This document shows positions 40,163 to 44,585 of a stretch of 64,000 nt of DNA, piece by piece. How positions within the stretch are numbered: the first letter of the stretch is position 1; every line of letters starts with the position of its first letter. The DNA comes from Accumulibacter sp. (lineage in GTDB: Bacteria; Pseudomonadota; Gammaproteobacteria; Burkholderiales; Rhodocyclaceae), in assembly GCF_029255285.1 (NCBI RefSeq), contig NZ_JAPUVI010000085.1, forward strand, positions 1-64,000, given 5' to 3'. The notes under the pieces were generated by a model. It did no database searches and was not told the DNA's origin. It was given only the letters and a program-made list of their open reading frames with translations. The position numbers were made by a program, and so were the translations under genes.

Positions 40163-42625
40163 ATGACGATTGGCAATTGTTACCATTGTGGTCAGGCCGT
40201 GCCAAGCGGCGTCGAACTTGCCGTCAACATCGACGGTGAGCAGCGCCTGGTGTGCTGCGGCGGTTGTCAGGCAGTCGCCCAGGCGATCGTGGCGAACGGG
40301 CTGGCGGACTACTATCGGCACCGTGACGCCTTGCCCGATGCGCCGCGTGAGGCGCTGCCGGCGATCGTCGACCGCCTGCAACTCTATGATCACGCCGATT
40401 TCCAGAAGAGTTTCGTGCGTCTCGTCGCGGACGGTAGCGGCGAGCGTGAGGCGGCGCTGATTCTCGAAGGAATTACCTGCTCGGCCTGCATCTGGCTTAA
40501 TGAGCAGCATCTTTCTCAACTCGTCGGCGTCACCGCGGTCGATATCAACTACGCGACGCGGCGTGCCCGGGTGCGCTGGGACGAGCAGCGCATCAAGCTG
40601 TCAGCGATCCTGGCGGCGATCGCCGCGATCGGCTACCGCGCCTACCCCTACGATGCGGCAAGAAGCGAGGAACTGGCGCGCACGGAGCGACGCAAGGCGT
40701 TATGGCGGGTATTCGTCGCTGGTTTCGGCATGATGCAGGTCATGATGTACGCCGTTCCGGTGTATCTGGCCGGTGACGGTGAGATGACGCGGGAGGTCGA
40801 GCAACTGATGCGCTGGGCGAGCCTGGCGCTGACGCTGCCGGTTATCGGCTATTCAGCGGCGCCCTTTTTCGGCAATGCCTGGCGCGATCTTCGGCTGCAC
40901 CGTGTGGGCATGGACGTCCCCGTTGCTCTGGGAATCGGTGCCGCCTTTGCCGCCAGCGTATGGGCGACGCTGACCGCCAGCGGGGAGGTCTATTTCGACT
41001 CCGTGACGATGTTCATCTTCTTCTTGCTCAGCGGGCGTTTTTTGGAAATGACCGCTCGTCAGCGCGCGGTCAGCGTTACCGAGTCCTTGGCCAAGCTGAG
41101 GCCGAACATGGCGACGCGCCTGCCGGGCTTTCCCGCGCGACGCGAGGGCGAGCAGGTCGTGGCGGCCGATTTGCAGCCGGGGGACATCGTTCTGGTGCGG
41201 CCCGGCGAGACGATTCCGGCCGACGGGCAGGTGCTCGAAGGCGAGAGCCGCGCCGACGAAGCGCTGCTGACCGGCGAAAGCGTACCAGTCCGCAAGCGTC
41301 CGGGGGACGCCGTGACCGGTGGTGCGCTCAACATCGAAAGCCCTTTGCTGGTCGAAGTCACGCAGGTCGGCGAGGCGACGCGTCTGTCGGCCATCGTTCG
41401 TCTGATGGAGCGCGCGGCGACCGAGAAGCCCCGGATCGTCGAGCTCGCCGACCGGATTGCCGGTCGTTTCATCGTCAGCTTGCTGGTCCTCGCGACCGTC
41501 GTGGCGATTGTCTGGTCGTACGTCGATCCGGCACAGGCGCTGTGGGTAACCGTTTCCGTTCTCGTCGTGACCTGTCCCTGCGCGCTGTCGCTCGCCACCC
41601 CGGTAGCGCTAACGGTCGCCACGGGTGCGATGGCGAGGAGCGGCTTGCTAGTGACACGCAGTCATGCCGTCGAGACGCTGGCGCGCGCCAATCATTTCGT
41701 CTTCGACAAGACCGGCACGCTGACCAGCGGCCGCATGCGATTGCTGTCCGTCCTGACGCTTGGCAAGCTCGACCGGGAGGCTAGCCTGGCGCTGGCGGCC
41801 GCTCTCGAGCAGGCGTCGGAGCATCCGATAGGCGCCGCGCTGCGGGAGGCAAGCCTGGGGCGTGACTTGCCGAAGCTCGATTCGCTGATCAACGAGCCCG
41901 GTTGCGGGATCAGCGCCATCCATGACGGTCGCCACCTTCGCCTTGGCCGGACGGATTACGTCGGTGCCTTGCACGACGAACCCCTGCCGGAGGCCGCACA
42001 GATCATGCTCGGACTGGGCGACACAGTGATCGCTCTGGGTGACGAGGCGGGGTGGATGGCGCTCTTTCGCTTGGGTGACGAATTGCGGCCGGAAGCGGCG
42101 GGCATGGTCGCGGCTTTACGGCAAGCTGGTCTGCGGGTGGCCTTGCTGACTGGCGACGCAGCGCCGGCTGCCCGCCGCGTAGCGCTGGCGCTGAGGATAG
42201 ACGAGCTGCAGGCGGAGGCGTCGCCACAGGCCAAGCAGGACTACGTCCGCCGCTTGCAGGCAAACGGCGCCATCGTGGCGATGATCGGTGACGGCGTGAA
42301 TGACGCGCCGGTGCTGGCACAGGCGCAGGTGTCGGTGGCCATGGGCAGCGGCTCACAGTTGGCGCGTACGCAGGCCGACCTGGTGCTGCTTTCCGAAAAC
42401 CTCGATCACCTGCGCCGAGGTTTGCTCCTGGCTCGCCGGGCGCTGCGGATCCTCCGGCAGAATCTGATCTGGTCGTTCGTTTACAATCTGGTAGCACTGC
42501 CGCTCGCGATGACCGGCTTCATCACGCCATGGATGGCAGGCATAGGTATGTCTGCGAGTTCCCTGCTGGTGGTGGCGAATTCGCTACGCTTGCAGAAGAT
42601 CGGTGGCCGCAGAATCGATTGCTGA
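40163..42625 (+). CDS. ccoI: Cu+ P-type ATPase CcoI/FixI (cbb3 oxidase copper loading)
   Basis: CcoI delivers copper for the CcoN haem-copper site of cbb3 oxidase. 820 residues. An N-terminal metal-binding region with CYHCG and CCGGCQAV is followed by an HMA domain with GITCSAC. Then come helices, the copper-translocating CPC (TCPCALSLATP, about 469-479), the phosphorylation site DKTGTLT (about 514), and the ATP-binding hinge GDGVNDAP (about 709). A TTG at 40145 would add six residues. The order ccoI-ccoS-ccoNOQP-ccoG-ccoH places it at the head of the locus, ending in overlap with ccoS. No FNR box was found in front of it. Confidence 0.93.
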   Translation: MTIGNCYHCGQAVPSGVELAVNIDGEQRLVCCGGCQAVAQAIVANGLADYYRHRDALPDAPREALPAIVDRLQLYDHADFQKSFVRLVADGSGEREAALILEGITCSACIWLNEQHLSQLVGVTAVDINYATRRARVRWDEQRIKLSAILAAIAAIGYRAYPYDAARSEELARTERRKALWRVFVAGFGMMQVMMYAVPVYLAGDGEMTREVEQLMRWASLALTLPVIGYSAAPFFGNAWRDLRLHRVGMDVPVALGIGAAFAASVWATLTASGEVYFDSVTMFIFFLLSGRFLEMTARQRAVSVTESLAKLRPNMATRLPGFPARREGEQVVAADLQPGDIVLVRPGETIPADGQVLEGESRADEALLTGESVPVRKRPGDAVTGGALNIESPLLVEVTQVGEATRLSAIVRLMERAATEKPRIVELADRIAGRFIVSLLVLATVVAIVWSYVDPAQALWVTVSVLVVTCPCALSLATPVALTVATGAMARSGLLVTRSHAVETLARANHFVFDKTGTLTSGRMRLLSVLTLGKLDREASLALAAALEQASEHPIGAALREASLGRDLPKLDSLINEPGCGISAIHDGRHLRLGRTDYVGALHDEPLPEAAQIMLGLGDTVIALGDEAGWMALFRLGDELRPEAAGMVAALRQAGLRVALLTGDAAPAARRVALALRIDELQAEASPQAKQDYVRRLQANGAIVAMIGDGVNDAPVLAQAQVSVAMGSGSQLARTQADLVLLSENLDHLRRGLLLARRALRILRQNLIWSFVYNLVALPLAMTGFITPWMAGIGMSASSLLVVANSLRLQKIGGRRIDC

Positions 42626-42831
42626 TGGAAACACTGTACCTGTTGATACCCATTTCGGTGCTCCTCGTCTTTCTGATCGGTATCGCGTTCTGGTGGTCCT
42701 TGCGTAGCGGTCAGTTCGACGACCTGGAAGGGCCAGCCTACCGCATCCTGATGGACGACGATCGACCGCCAACGGAATCGTCGACGGATCCGCCGGCCCA
42801 GTCGTTCGATACGCGGCGCGAAGCAGACTGA
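42625..42831 (+). CDS. ccoS: cbb3-type oxidase assembly protein CcoS
   Basis: A 68-residue single-span membrane protein starting METLYLLIPISVLLVFLIGIAF, with WWSLRSGQFDDLEGPAYRIL right after the helix: the canonical CcoS segment. CcoS is needed for maturation (haem and copper incorporation) of cbb3 oxidase. Its ATG overlaps the ccoI stop (TGATG), giving translational coupling. A longer frame from 42529 exists but lies inside ccoI. The tail of about 25 residues is Pro/Ser/Asp-rich. Confidence 0.92.
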   Translation: METLYLLIPISVLLVFLIGIAFWWSLRSGQFDDLEGPAYRILMDDDRPPTESSTDPPAQSFDTRREAD

Positions 42832-42862
42832 AGGCGGCCGCCGACAGCAATCGGAGCATCTC

Positions 42863-42904
42863 TTGACCTAGGTCAAGACCTGTCGCCGCTTGGGTCGGGA
42901 TAAT
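42863..42904 (+). promoter_or_regulatory. FNR/ANR-type box with -10 element (P1)
   Basis: TTGACCTAGGTCAA (42863-42876) is a perfect palindrome close to the FNR consensus TTGAT-N4-ATCAA. GATAAT lies at 42899-42904, exactly 22 bp further, which centres the box near -41.5 as in class II FNR promoters. Predicted start about 42911. There is no protein gene before a strong terminator. Confidence 0.65.
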
Positions 42905-42910
42905 CCGCCC

Positions 42911-43004
42911 CATTGTCAGCGTCGTTGTTCCGCTTTTGGTCGCTGGGGTGGTAGAGGTCTTTCTCTGTTGGGGTTCGGGTGCGTTTCGACGCACCCCTTT
43001 TTTT
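42911..43004 (+). ncRNA. Candidate FNR-controlled small RNA
   Basis: The stretch between the P1 start and the terminator is about 94 nt long, with no plausible open frame (only a GTG start without a ribosome-binding site). The body contains U/C-rich segments such as TCTTTCTCT, which can form a small hairpin with the AGAG before it and which is complementary to Shine-Dalgarno-like AGAGAAAGA. It ends in a Rho-independent terminator with a UUCG loop and seven Ts, the usual 3' end of an Hfq-type sRNA. An alternative is an attenuated leader or the terminator of the ccoIS transcript. Confidence 0.5.
42977..43004 (+). terminator. Rho-independent terminator with UUCG tetraloop
   Basis: GGGTGCGT (42977-42984) and ACGCACCC (42989-42996) form an 8-bp stem around TTCG, followed by C and seven Ts. 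This is a very strong intrinsic terminator. Confidence 0.85.
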
Positions 43005-43039
43005 GCCTGCCCGTAACCCTTGCCTTGCGGTCGGGTCGC

Positions 43040-43081
43040 TTGATCTGTGTCAAATTGGCTTCCTGAAGGGTAGAATAGCAT
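43040..43081 (+). promoter_or_regulatory. FNR/ANR-type box and -10 for ccoNOQP (P2)
   Basis: TTGATCTGTGTCAA (43040-43053) matches TTGAT-N4-GTCAA. TAGCAT at 43076-43081 is 22 bp downstream; an overlapping TAGAAT at 43071-43076 is an alternative. Predicted start about 43088, with a leader of about 70 nt to ccoN. Low-oxygen induction of the high-affinity oxidase is expected. Confidence 0.65.
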
Positions 43082-43157
43082 CTCTAAAGTCAGTGCTCAG
43101 GATAAGGGCATTTGGGGCGGTGAAAGCCGGTTAATTGGTCGAGAAAGAGGTGAGTCC

Positions 43158-44585
43158 ATGTCGGTAACTCAGTCAACATACAACTACAAAGTCGTGCGGC
43201 AGTTCGCCGTGATGACCGTCATCTGGGGAATTGTCGGAATGCTGGTCGGCGTCATCATCGCTGCCCAACTGGTCTGGCCCGAGCTGAATTTGGGTTGGCT
43301 GCATTTCGGTCGACTACGCCCACTTCATACCAATGCGGTGATTTTTGCCTTCGGTGGCAGCGCGCTCTTTGCGACCTCTTACTATGTTGTCCAGCGCACC
43401 TGTCACACACGGATCTTCTCGGACGGCCTGGCGGCTTTCACTTTCTGGGGTTGGCAGTTGATTATCGTTCTGGCCGCCGTGACGTTGCCGTTGGGTATCA
43501 CGTCCGGCAAAGAGTATGCCGAACTCGAGTGGCCGATCGACATCCTGATCACTCTGGTCTGGGTTGCCTACGCCGTCGTTTTTTTCGGCACCATTGCCAA
43601 ACGCAAGGTCAGCCATATCTACGTCGCCAACTGGTTTTACGGCGGCTTCATTCTGGCCGTGGCTCTGCTGCATGTCGTCAATAGTGCCGCCATCCCGGTT
43701 TCGCTGACCAAGTCTTACTCGGCCTACGCCGGGGTACAGGATGCGATGGTTCAGTGGTGGTATGGCCATAATGCGGTCGGCTTTTTCCTCACCGCCGGCT
43801 TTCTCGGCATGATGTACTACTTCGTCCCGAAGCAGGCCGGGCGGCCGGTGTATTCGTATCGCTTGTCGGTGGTTCACTTCTGGGCGCTGATCTTCACCTA
43901 CATGTGGGCCGGTCCGCACCACCTGCACTACACCGCGCTGCCTGACTGGACCCAGTCCGTCGGCATGCTGTTCTCGCTGATTCTGCTCGCACCTTCATGG
44001 GGCGGCATGATCAACGGCGTAATGACTCTGTCGGGCGCTTGGCACAAGCTGCGTGACGATCCAATTCTCAAGTTCCTGATCACGTCGCTGTCGTTCTACG
44101 GCATGTCGACCTTCGAAGGCCCGATGATGGCCATCAAGACCGTCAACGCCTTGTCGCATTACACCGACTGGACGGTCGGTCACGTGCATTCGGGCGCCTT
44201 GGGTTGGGTGGCGATGGTTTCCATCGGCGCCATTTACTATCTCCTGCCGCGTCTGTTTGGCAAGCCCGAGATGTTCAGCGTCAAGTTGATCACCGTGCAC
44301 TTCTGGGTTGCGACGATCGGCGTCGTGCTGTACATCGCCTCGATGTGGATTGCTGGCGTCATGCAGGGACTGATGTGGCGGGCGGTCAACATCGACGGCA
44401 CACTGACCTACAGCTTCGTCGAATCGGTCAAGGCTTCGTATCCGTTCTGGGCGATCCGTTTTCTCGGGGGCCTTCTCTTCCTGGTCGGCATGTTGATCAT
44501 GGCCTACAACATGGTCAAGACGATCGCCGGTGGCCGGACAGTCGATGATGCGCTCGTCCTGCAACCCGCCGCTCATCACGCCTGA
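43158..44585 (+). CDS. ccoN: cbb3-type cytochrome c oxidase subunit I
   Basis: The catalytic haem-copper subunit, which reduces O2 to water with high affinity and pumps protons. 475 residues with about 12 transmembrane helices. The His ligands are visible: [41 protein letters not shown] and [14 protein letters not shown]. The long cbb3-specific helix end [14 protein letters not shown] is present. AGAGGTGA precedes the ATG. It is the first structural gene of ccoNOQP, 12 bp ahead of ccoO, and lies under the FNR-type promoter P2. Confidence 0.97.

Follow-up and report, generated by a model that had tools for sequence, protein, structure and literature searches.

AniS of Neisseria is an FNR-controlled RNA of a betaproteobacterial lineage, and FnrS lies at a genomic place other than the interval between ccoS and ccoN. 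In the part of the published account considered here, FnrS of Escherichia coli and its relatives represses genes that are dispensable without oxygen, oxidative-stress genes included, and PaiI of Pseudomonas aeruginosa is an anaerobically induced RNA in a denitrifier that needs NarXL and, most likely indirectly, ANR (PMC8139620). The nearest known RNA by position is HRC-8-4 of the Rhodobacterales, which the available portion of its description presents as a conserved, terminator-like RNA element where ccoNOQP meets ccoGHIS, usually after ccoP and before ccoG, with conserved letters at the tip of the terminator stem; that portion names no FNR box (PMC8632094). For Accumulibacter, FNR motifs upstream of the cbb3 genes are known and have been assigned to protein genes, and an FNR switch has been inferred from motifs upstream of such genes; the word 'noncoding' is absent from the main text of that source, as far as it was available (PMC6446978).

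The window, by which we mean the whole 64-kb stretch of DNA that was analysed, has the gene order ccoI, ccoS, RNA, ccoN, ccoO, ccoQ, ccoP, ccoG and ccoH, where RNA denotes the predicted small RNA gene and ccoQ is a small ORF assigned by its position. It belongs to a Rhodocyclaceae genome, and the nearest matches of its CcoN (98% and 95%) point to proximity to Candidatus Accumulibacter. The original prediction had placed an FNR box, a -10 element 22 nt further on, an RNA of about 94 nt and a terminator with seven Ts between ccoS and ccoN, and all of these are found where it put them (Table 1).

Table 1. Coordinates of the predicted small RNA gene, its parts and its neighbours within the window.
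Feature	Position	Strand	Basis or remark
FNR-type box TTGACCTAGGTCAA	42863-42876	+	Perfect 14-bp palindrome; proposed promoter of the RNA
-10 element GATAAT	42899-42904	+	22 nt past the box, class II spacing
Predicted small RNA, about 94 nt	42911-43004	+	Start inferred from the -10 element, end from the T run
Variable 5' body of the RNA	42911-42961	+	Structured, sequence not conserved
Nearly invariant core TCTCTGTTGGGGTT, proposed seed	42962-42975	+	Conservation across loci
Intrinsic terminator	42977-43004	+	Stem-loop 42977-42996 with 8-bp stem and UUCG loop; then C and seven T
Second FNR box TTGATCTGTGTCAA, proposed ccoN promoter, outside the RNA	43040-43053	+	Pattern match
Putative ccoN -10 element TAGCAT	43076-43081	+	22 nt past the second box; sequence reading
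ccoS (FixS), upstream neighbour	42625-42831	+	Pfam FixS, 82.5 bits
ccoN, downstream neighbour	43158-44585	+	Pfam COX1, 402.6 bits

Like FnrS, as far as the partial account of it goes, the RNA is predicted to be FNR-activated, terminated and of Hfq type, and one of its candidate targets is a superoxide dismutase; it is FnrS-like in logic and stands outside the family, as neither the window nor seven relatives match the fnrS covariance model of Rfam. In particular, no Rfam family reaches its gathering score in the window, fnrS is absent from the two matches found up to E = 5, and the seven relatives hold no member of any family. The best of the weak matches, SorY (RF02651), scores 20 bits at 42955-43004 against a gathering score of 111, so that the RNA is no member of it. 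Compared with the available description of HRC-8-4, the RNA differs in place, lineage and conserved letters: it follows ccoS and precedes ccoN, its terminator loop is variable and its conserved letters lie before the stem, and none of the three features described for HRC-8-4 (stem-tip letters, a host in the Rhodobacterales, the place between ccoP and ccoG) is found. Likened by partial description to PaiI, it shares anaerobic induction, which is predicted here; PaiI depends on NarXL.

At up to two mismatches, TTGACCTAGGTCAA has a single match in the 64 kb (chance mean 0.10, with at least one match in 10 of 100 shuffles), and the general FNR pattern TTGAYNNNNRTCAA has two matches (42863 and 43040) where 0.15 would be expected, a count that none of 100 shuffles reaches. 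Terminator-like sites are not rare in themselves (two found versus 2.2 expected in the 2 kb around the locus), and the single-sequence fold of the window's RNA is only mildly better than that of its shuffles (z of -1.54). What exceeds chance at this locus is conservation.

Two sets of loci were compared. A DNA search with 42832-43157 yielded 124 loci in 123 of 199 Rhodocyclaceae genomes, all of which were read; outside the window's own genus, the matched part was mostly 42960-43009, so the promoter was mostly no part of locus selection, and the core was part of it. Since selection by DNA similarity could be biased towards exact cores, a covariance model (R2) supplied a second set; it matches in 158 of the 199 family genomes, a few of them weakly, including 35 that the DNA search had missed. 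Loci from 28 of these 35 form the second set; one more genome (G046) was treated separately as locus L208, and the other six stand outside the count. The core TCTCTGTTGGGGTT is exact in 122 of the 124 first-set loci, the exceptions being L005 with three mismatches and L186 with one; moreover, an exact core and a perfect FNR box occur together in 28 of 28 second-set loci, and L208 gives the same result. Across the 124 loci, the mean column identity (the sum of squared letter frequencies, ungapped and anchored on the core) is 0.995 within the core, versus 0.26-0.31 in seven 14-nt stretches either side.

A lack of conservation beyond box and terminator would have spoken against the original prediction. 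The nearly invariant 14-nt core removes this objection, although the sequence of the remaining body is not conserved; the U/C-rich stretch that had been singled out, TCTTTCTCT, gives way to TCTCTGTTGGGGTT as the conserved stretch. The family-wide search proposed at that time finds box, core and terminator recurring in Rhodocyclaceae loci, mostly between ccoS and ccoN.

The predicted promoter is shared as widely as the core. A perfect TTGAYNNNNRTCAA box lies within 240 nt directly upstream of the core in 122 of 124 first-set loci, and the best -10 element stands at class II distance from it, with a spacing of 21 or 22, in 116 of these 122 (ties broken towards 22) and in 27 of 28 second-set loci. 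A hexamer with at least four matches to TATAAT is present at these spacings in 106 of the 122 loci, compared to 5% of shuffled spacers. With a box in 122/124 and 28/28 loci, the comparison strongly supports the proposal that a separate, putatively FNR-driven small RNA with its own terminator precedes ccoN. The 124 loci contain further perfect boxes, 119 of them within 450 nt past the core and two elsewhere; the latter two come from L143 and L178, the only loci to lack a direct box, and lie upstream of ompW. In both genomes, the ompW gene (Pfam OmpW; L143:159-842 and L178:885-1544) separates the perfect FNR box from the core, its stop codon being 8 nt short of the latter, and the RNA is probably the 3' end of an FNR-driven ompW mRNA. 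As these loci keep a box upstream, FNR control seems to be retained even with the unit split, and they amount to a natural experiment on how small RNAs change their mode of production. Further, the predicted RNA length in relatives ranges from 39 to 207 nt (median 98.5). At the lower end, in L163, L186 and L202, the box is so near that the predicted RNA runs from the second core letter on and measures 39-40 nt; these versions hold nearly the whole core and the terminator, which suggests that the function resides there.

The terminator stem pairs in 97.2% of cells and has changes on both sides at six of its eight pairs (91 sequences), a level of covariation reached by none of 500 shuffles, which do not account for kinship; the covariation analysis suggested with the original prediction thus finds compensatory changes in this stem. 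A run of seven to nine Ts follows in 121 of 124 loci. The UUCG tetraloop, by comparison, does not generalise from the window, since only 21 of the 124 loci have TTCG in the terminator region and the loop varies among the 91 sequences. Sequence and comparison together predict a discrete transcript with an intrinsic terminator and no conserved reading frame. The terminators of Hfq-dependent RNAs typically end in a long U tail, of some seven residues at least, and here a predicted U tail of at least about seven goes together with Hfq, which was found in all eight genomes looked at.

The 5' bodies are structured and free in sequence: 116 of them have a mean folding z of -1.74 versus mononucleotide shuffles. 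In a subgroup of 11, a body hairpin has paired letters in 80.5% of cells, and four of its seven pairs have changed on both sides; 18 of 500 shuffles reach four pairs and none reaches the covariation score, and at least two rows of this subgroup seem out of register. The core itself can form a weak UCUC/GGGG hairpin, which dominates the predicted folds and shows no covariation, a lack that speaks neither for nor against it. Across the folds of 119 RNAs, the mean unpaired probability is 0.12-0.46 in UCUC and GGGG and 0.76-0.80 in the loop UGUU; with UCUC and GGGG mostly paired, the seed may not be open.

The best explanation of the locus, and one that we consider likely, is the gene of an FNR-activated, probably Hfq-dependent, base-pairing small RNA. 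Under oxygen limitation, an FNR-type regulator would bind the box at 42863 and activate the class II promoter (-10 element at 42899), yielding a transcript of about 94 nt that would start near 42911 and stop at the terminator, at 43004. As the transcript would end there, ccoN, with its own FNR promoter, would not be reached. The working part would be the 3' module (UCUCUGUUGGGGUU, terminator and U tail), to which the 5' body would add an exchangeable structured leader, and the core, aided by Hfq, would most likely pair around the translation starts of several mRNAs and repress them at low oxygen. Comparison between loci shows that the predicted promoter layout, the core and the terminator are conserved and that the unit can occur apart from ccoN; transcription, FNR dependence, Hfq binding and repression of mRNAs are inferred.

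The usual position of the RNA, upstream of ccoN and on the same strand in 116 of 124 first-set loci, would also suit a conditional terminator or leader of ccoNOQP, akin to an attenuator or riboswitch, in which the FNR promoter reads into ccoN once the terminator is opened; such a switch has been speculated for HRC-8-4, the other terminator-like motif at cbb3 genes, in the available portion of its description (PMC8632094). However, a perfect box lies between the core and ccoN in 110 of these 116 loci and in 18 of 21 of the second set, in agreement with the earlier proposal that ccoN is on its own FNR promoter. The unit is also found before other genes: an Rrf2 regulator gene (L118 by Pfam; L152 by resemblance), a Usp gene on the opposite strand (L126) and, in Thauera phenolivorans, where the RNA follows ccoIS away from ccoN, genes read as a ferredoxin and an aldehyde:ferredoxin oxidoreductase. 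In all, eight of the 124 loci have no ccoN in the fetched stretch, two of which (L135 and L200) end shortly after the RNA, and seven of the 28 second-set loci have no ccoN match in theirs, the same seven being without a second box. Because the unit also occurs apart from ccoN, and ccoN has a box of its own, a ccoN leader is unlikely; the 39-40 nt versions, moreover, would leave scant room for a sensor. A somewhat better prospect, and still an improbable one, is that the core is a protein-binding site in RNA, and that the transcript acts as a sponge or cofactor for an RNA-binding protein and not as an antisense RNA. Its 14 letters are indeed nearly invariant without covariation, and seed complementarity at start codons is at most mildly enriched; against this, the core is without GGA, the motif of CsrA/RsmA, the terminator carries the long U tail typical of Hfq-dependent RNAs, and two genomes contain very long antisense matches.

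The remaining two explanations dispense with a small RNA gene. As ccoS precedes the unit in most loci, and in all 28 of the second set, the structure could merely end the ccoIS mRNA, the FNR box in front of it being there by chance. Transcripts that read through from ccoIS to the terminator would account for neither the box nor the core: the perfect box is directly upstream of the core in 150 of 152 loci from both sets together, the core is nearly invariant against unconserved flanks, and it follows ompW in two loci, all of which make this account very improbable. Even less credence is due to a short peptide encoded by the region. Mechanical ORFs do run across it (42890-43066, 58 aa), but, whatever the frame, no codon position of the core shows more than slight variation, the body is free in both length and sequence, and the 39-40 nt versions, beginning at the second core letter, have no room before it for a ribosome site.

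The predicted FNR-activated small RNA has a narrow distribution. A search by CcoN similarity gave 80 loci, of which 14 carry the exact core with the terminator, including those of Candidatus Accumulibacter contiguus, a Dechloromonas MAG and Denitromonas halophila; when eight genomes were checked for the RNA away from ccoN, two (L046 and L066) were without it. In 399 genomes of the order, a model of core and terminator matches 58 at E <= 0.001, and the matches above 60 bits fall in 13 Rhodocyclaceae and in G369 and G388, followed by a next match at 40 bits. All of the loci above 60 bits, G369 and G388 included, have ccoN and ccoS near the RNA, which may set it apart from AniS. Of the weak hits outside the family, 15 loci were read (L220-L234), none of which has an adjacent ccoN or ccoS, and a check on seven of them revealed no perfect box. 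With strong matches nearly confined to the Rhodocyclaceae, this looks like a family-level RNA and not a general feature of cbb3 loci. As far as the searches show, the loci represent a real and apparently new family of predicted FNR-activated small RNAs; no description of the RNA was found in open-licence texts and best-ranked results, and one elsewhere is possible.

Candidate targets were sought by complementarity to the core. The ccoN mRNA was rejected as a target, as its leader shows no special complementarity: the median pairing energy is -10.4 kcal/mol in 116 loci, versus -10.9 kcal/mol for 53 other ORF starts. With one mismatch allowed, the word CCCCAACAGAGA has 26 matches in four genomes, four of these matches being the RNA itself; the reversed word, as a control, has 22. 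Of the 22 non-self places, 12 are no more than 40 nt ahead of a mechanical ORF start, a count without a matched control for a word that holds the Shine-Dalgarno-like AGAGA. In 198 genomes, CCCCAACAGAG before an ATG gives 40 matches, of which 28 are non-self and 12 are the RNA gene read from the opposite strand, compared to 21 rows (19 distinct places) for a permuted word and nine for the reversed word. In four Accumulibacter genomes, CAACAGAG before an ATG gives 32 matches versus 26 for the permuted word, one of the 32 being the RNA itself and several a repeat in one genome (G079). An ORF of at least 100 aa follows in 11 of 30 loci read for CAACAGAG versus 10 of 26 for its permutation, and no gene recurs between genomes among the ORFs compared. 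Overall, seed matches before start codons exceed controls at most mildly, and the pattern searches yielded no convincing target in the window's own genome. Pairing with Shine-Dalgarno sequences, which the original prediction had envisaged, is unsupported as a general rule and finds support only at single genes in some genera.

Several of these single genes have long matches. At the sodC start in G073 (L270:988-1503), 21 nt are an exact complement to the core of the same genome's RNA, with a predicted energy of -48.6 kcal/mol, and sodC in G121 reaches -38.4 kcal/mol with the consensus core. In G044, the leader of a gene on the minus strand (L256:1276-1467), whose 64-aa product reads as a 4Fe-4S ferredoxin, matches over 17 nt exactly, then one mismatch and six more, 45 nt before the ATG, and pairs with the same genome's RNA at -50.3 kcal/mol. 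A dsrC-like gene in G010 matches over 14 nt (-44.3 kcal/mol with the consensus core), and the same match string occurs in G073. By their sequence, sodC, the ferredoxin gene and the dsrC-like gene are thus target candidates in single genera. SodC is found at E <= 1e-15 in 70 of 198 genomes, the window's own genome having no match at that threshold, and 30 sodC loci were read; the match is present in two of the three genomes of one genus and absent from the other 27 loci. With a complement in 2 of 30 loci, sodC was rejected as a family-wide target and is at most a lineage-specific one. Unusually for a pairing site, the sodC and the ferredoxin match both continue into the 5' strand of the terminator stem; these sites may be targets, or else descendants of inverted copies of the RNA gene. 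A second copy of the RNA considered at L256 was rejected, having neither box nor T run, and its opposite strand is the ferredoxin leader. It is thus no more than a plausible inference that the RNA turns down oxygen-linked enzymes.

A seed complement just before the start codon was also observed at hppD (4-hydroxyphenylpyruvate dioxygenase) in three genomes of one genus (L280-L282), and at an allantoicase gene in two genomes of one genus (L283 and L284).

A broader proposition, which we advance tentatively and rate slightly below an even chance, is that most Rhodocyclaceae have this hitherto undescribed RNA family as a constant member of their FNR regulon. It would consist of a unit of about 40 nt (core and terminator) whose production shifts between its own FNR promoter with a variable body, a bare core, and the 3' end of an FNR-driven ompW mRNA, and whose core serves many lineage-specific targets or a conserved RNA-binding protein. 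Among the Rhodocyclaceae are Accumulibacter and Thauera-type denitrifiers, on which wastewater plants depend for the removal of phosphorus and nitrogen and which there alternate between anoxic and oxic phases. With a deeply conserved low-oxygen RNA, the FNR switch inferred for Accumulibacter would gain a post-transcriptional layer, and the RNA probably helps the cells to retune their metabolism; its nearly invariant core makes the question of its targets directly testable.

In L380, the RNA is followed by an Rrf2-like gene and an FNR-like gene with a cyclic-nucleotide-binding domain. In an Accumulibacter relative (G018, L005), the RNA at 1652-1696 on the minus strand has the changed core GCTTTGTTGGGGTG together with a perfect FNR box and a T run, and may be a decaying or retuned copy.
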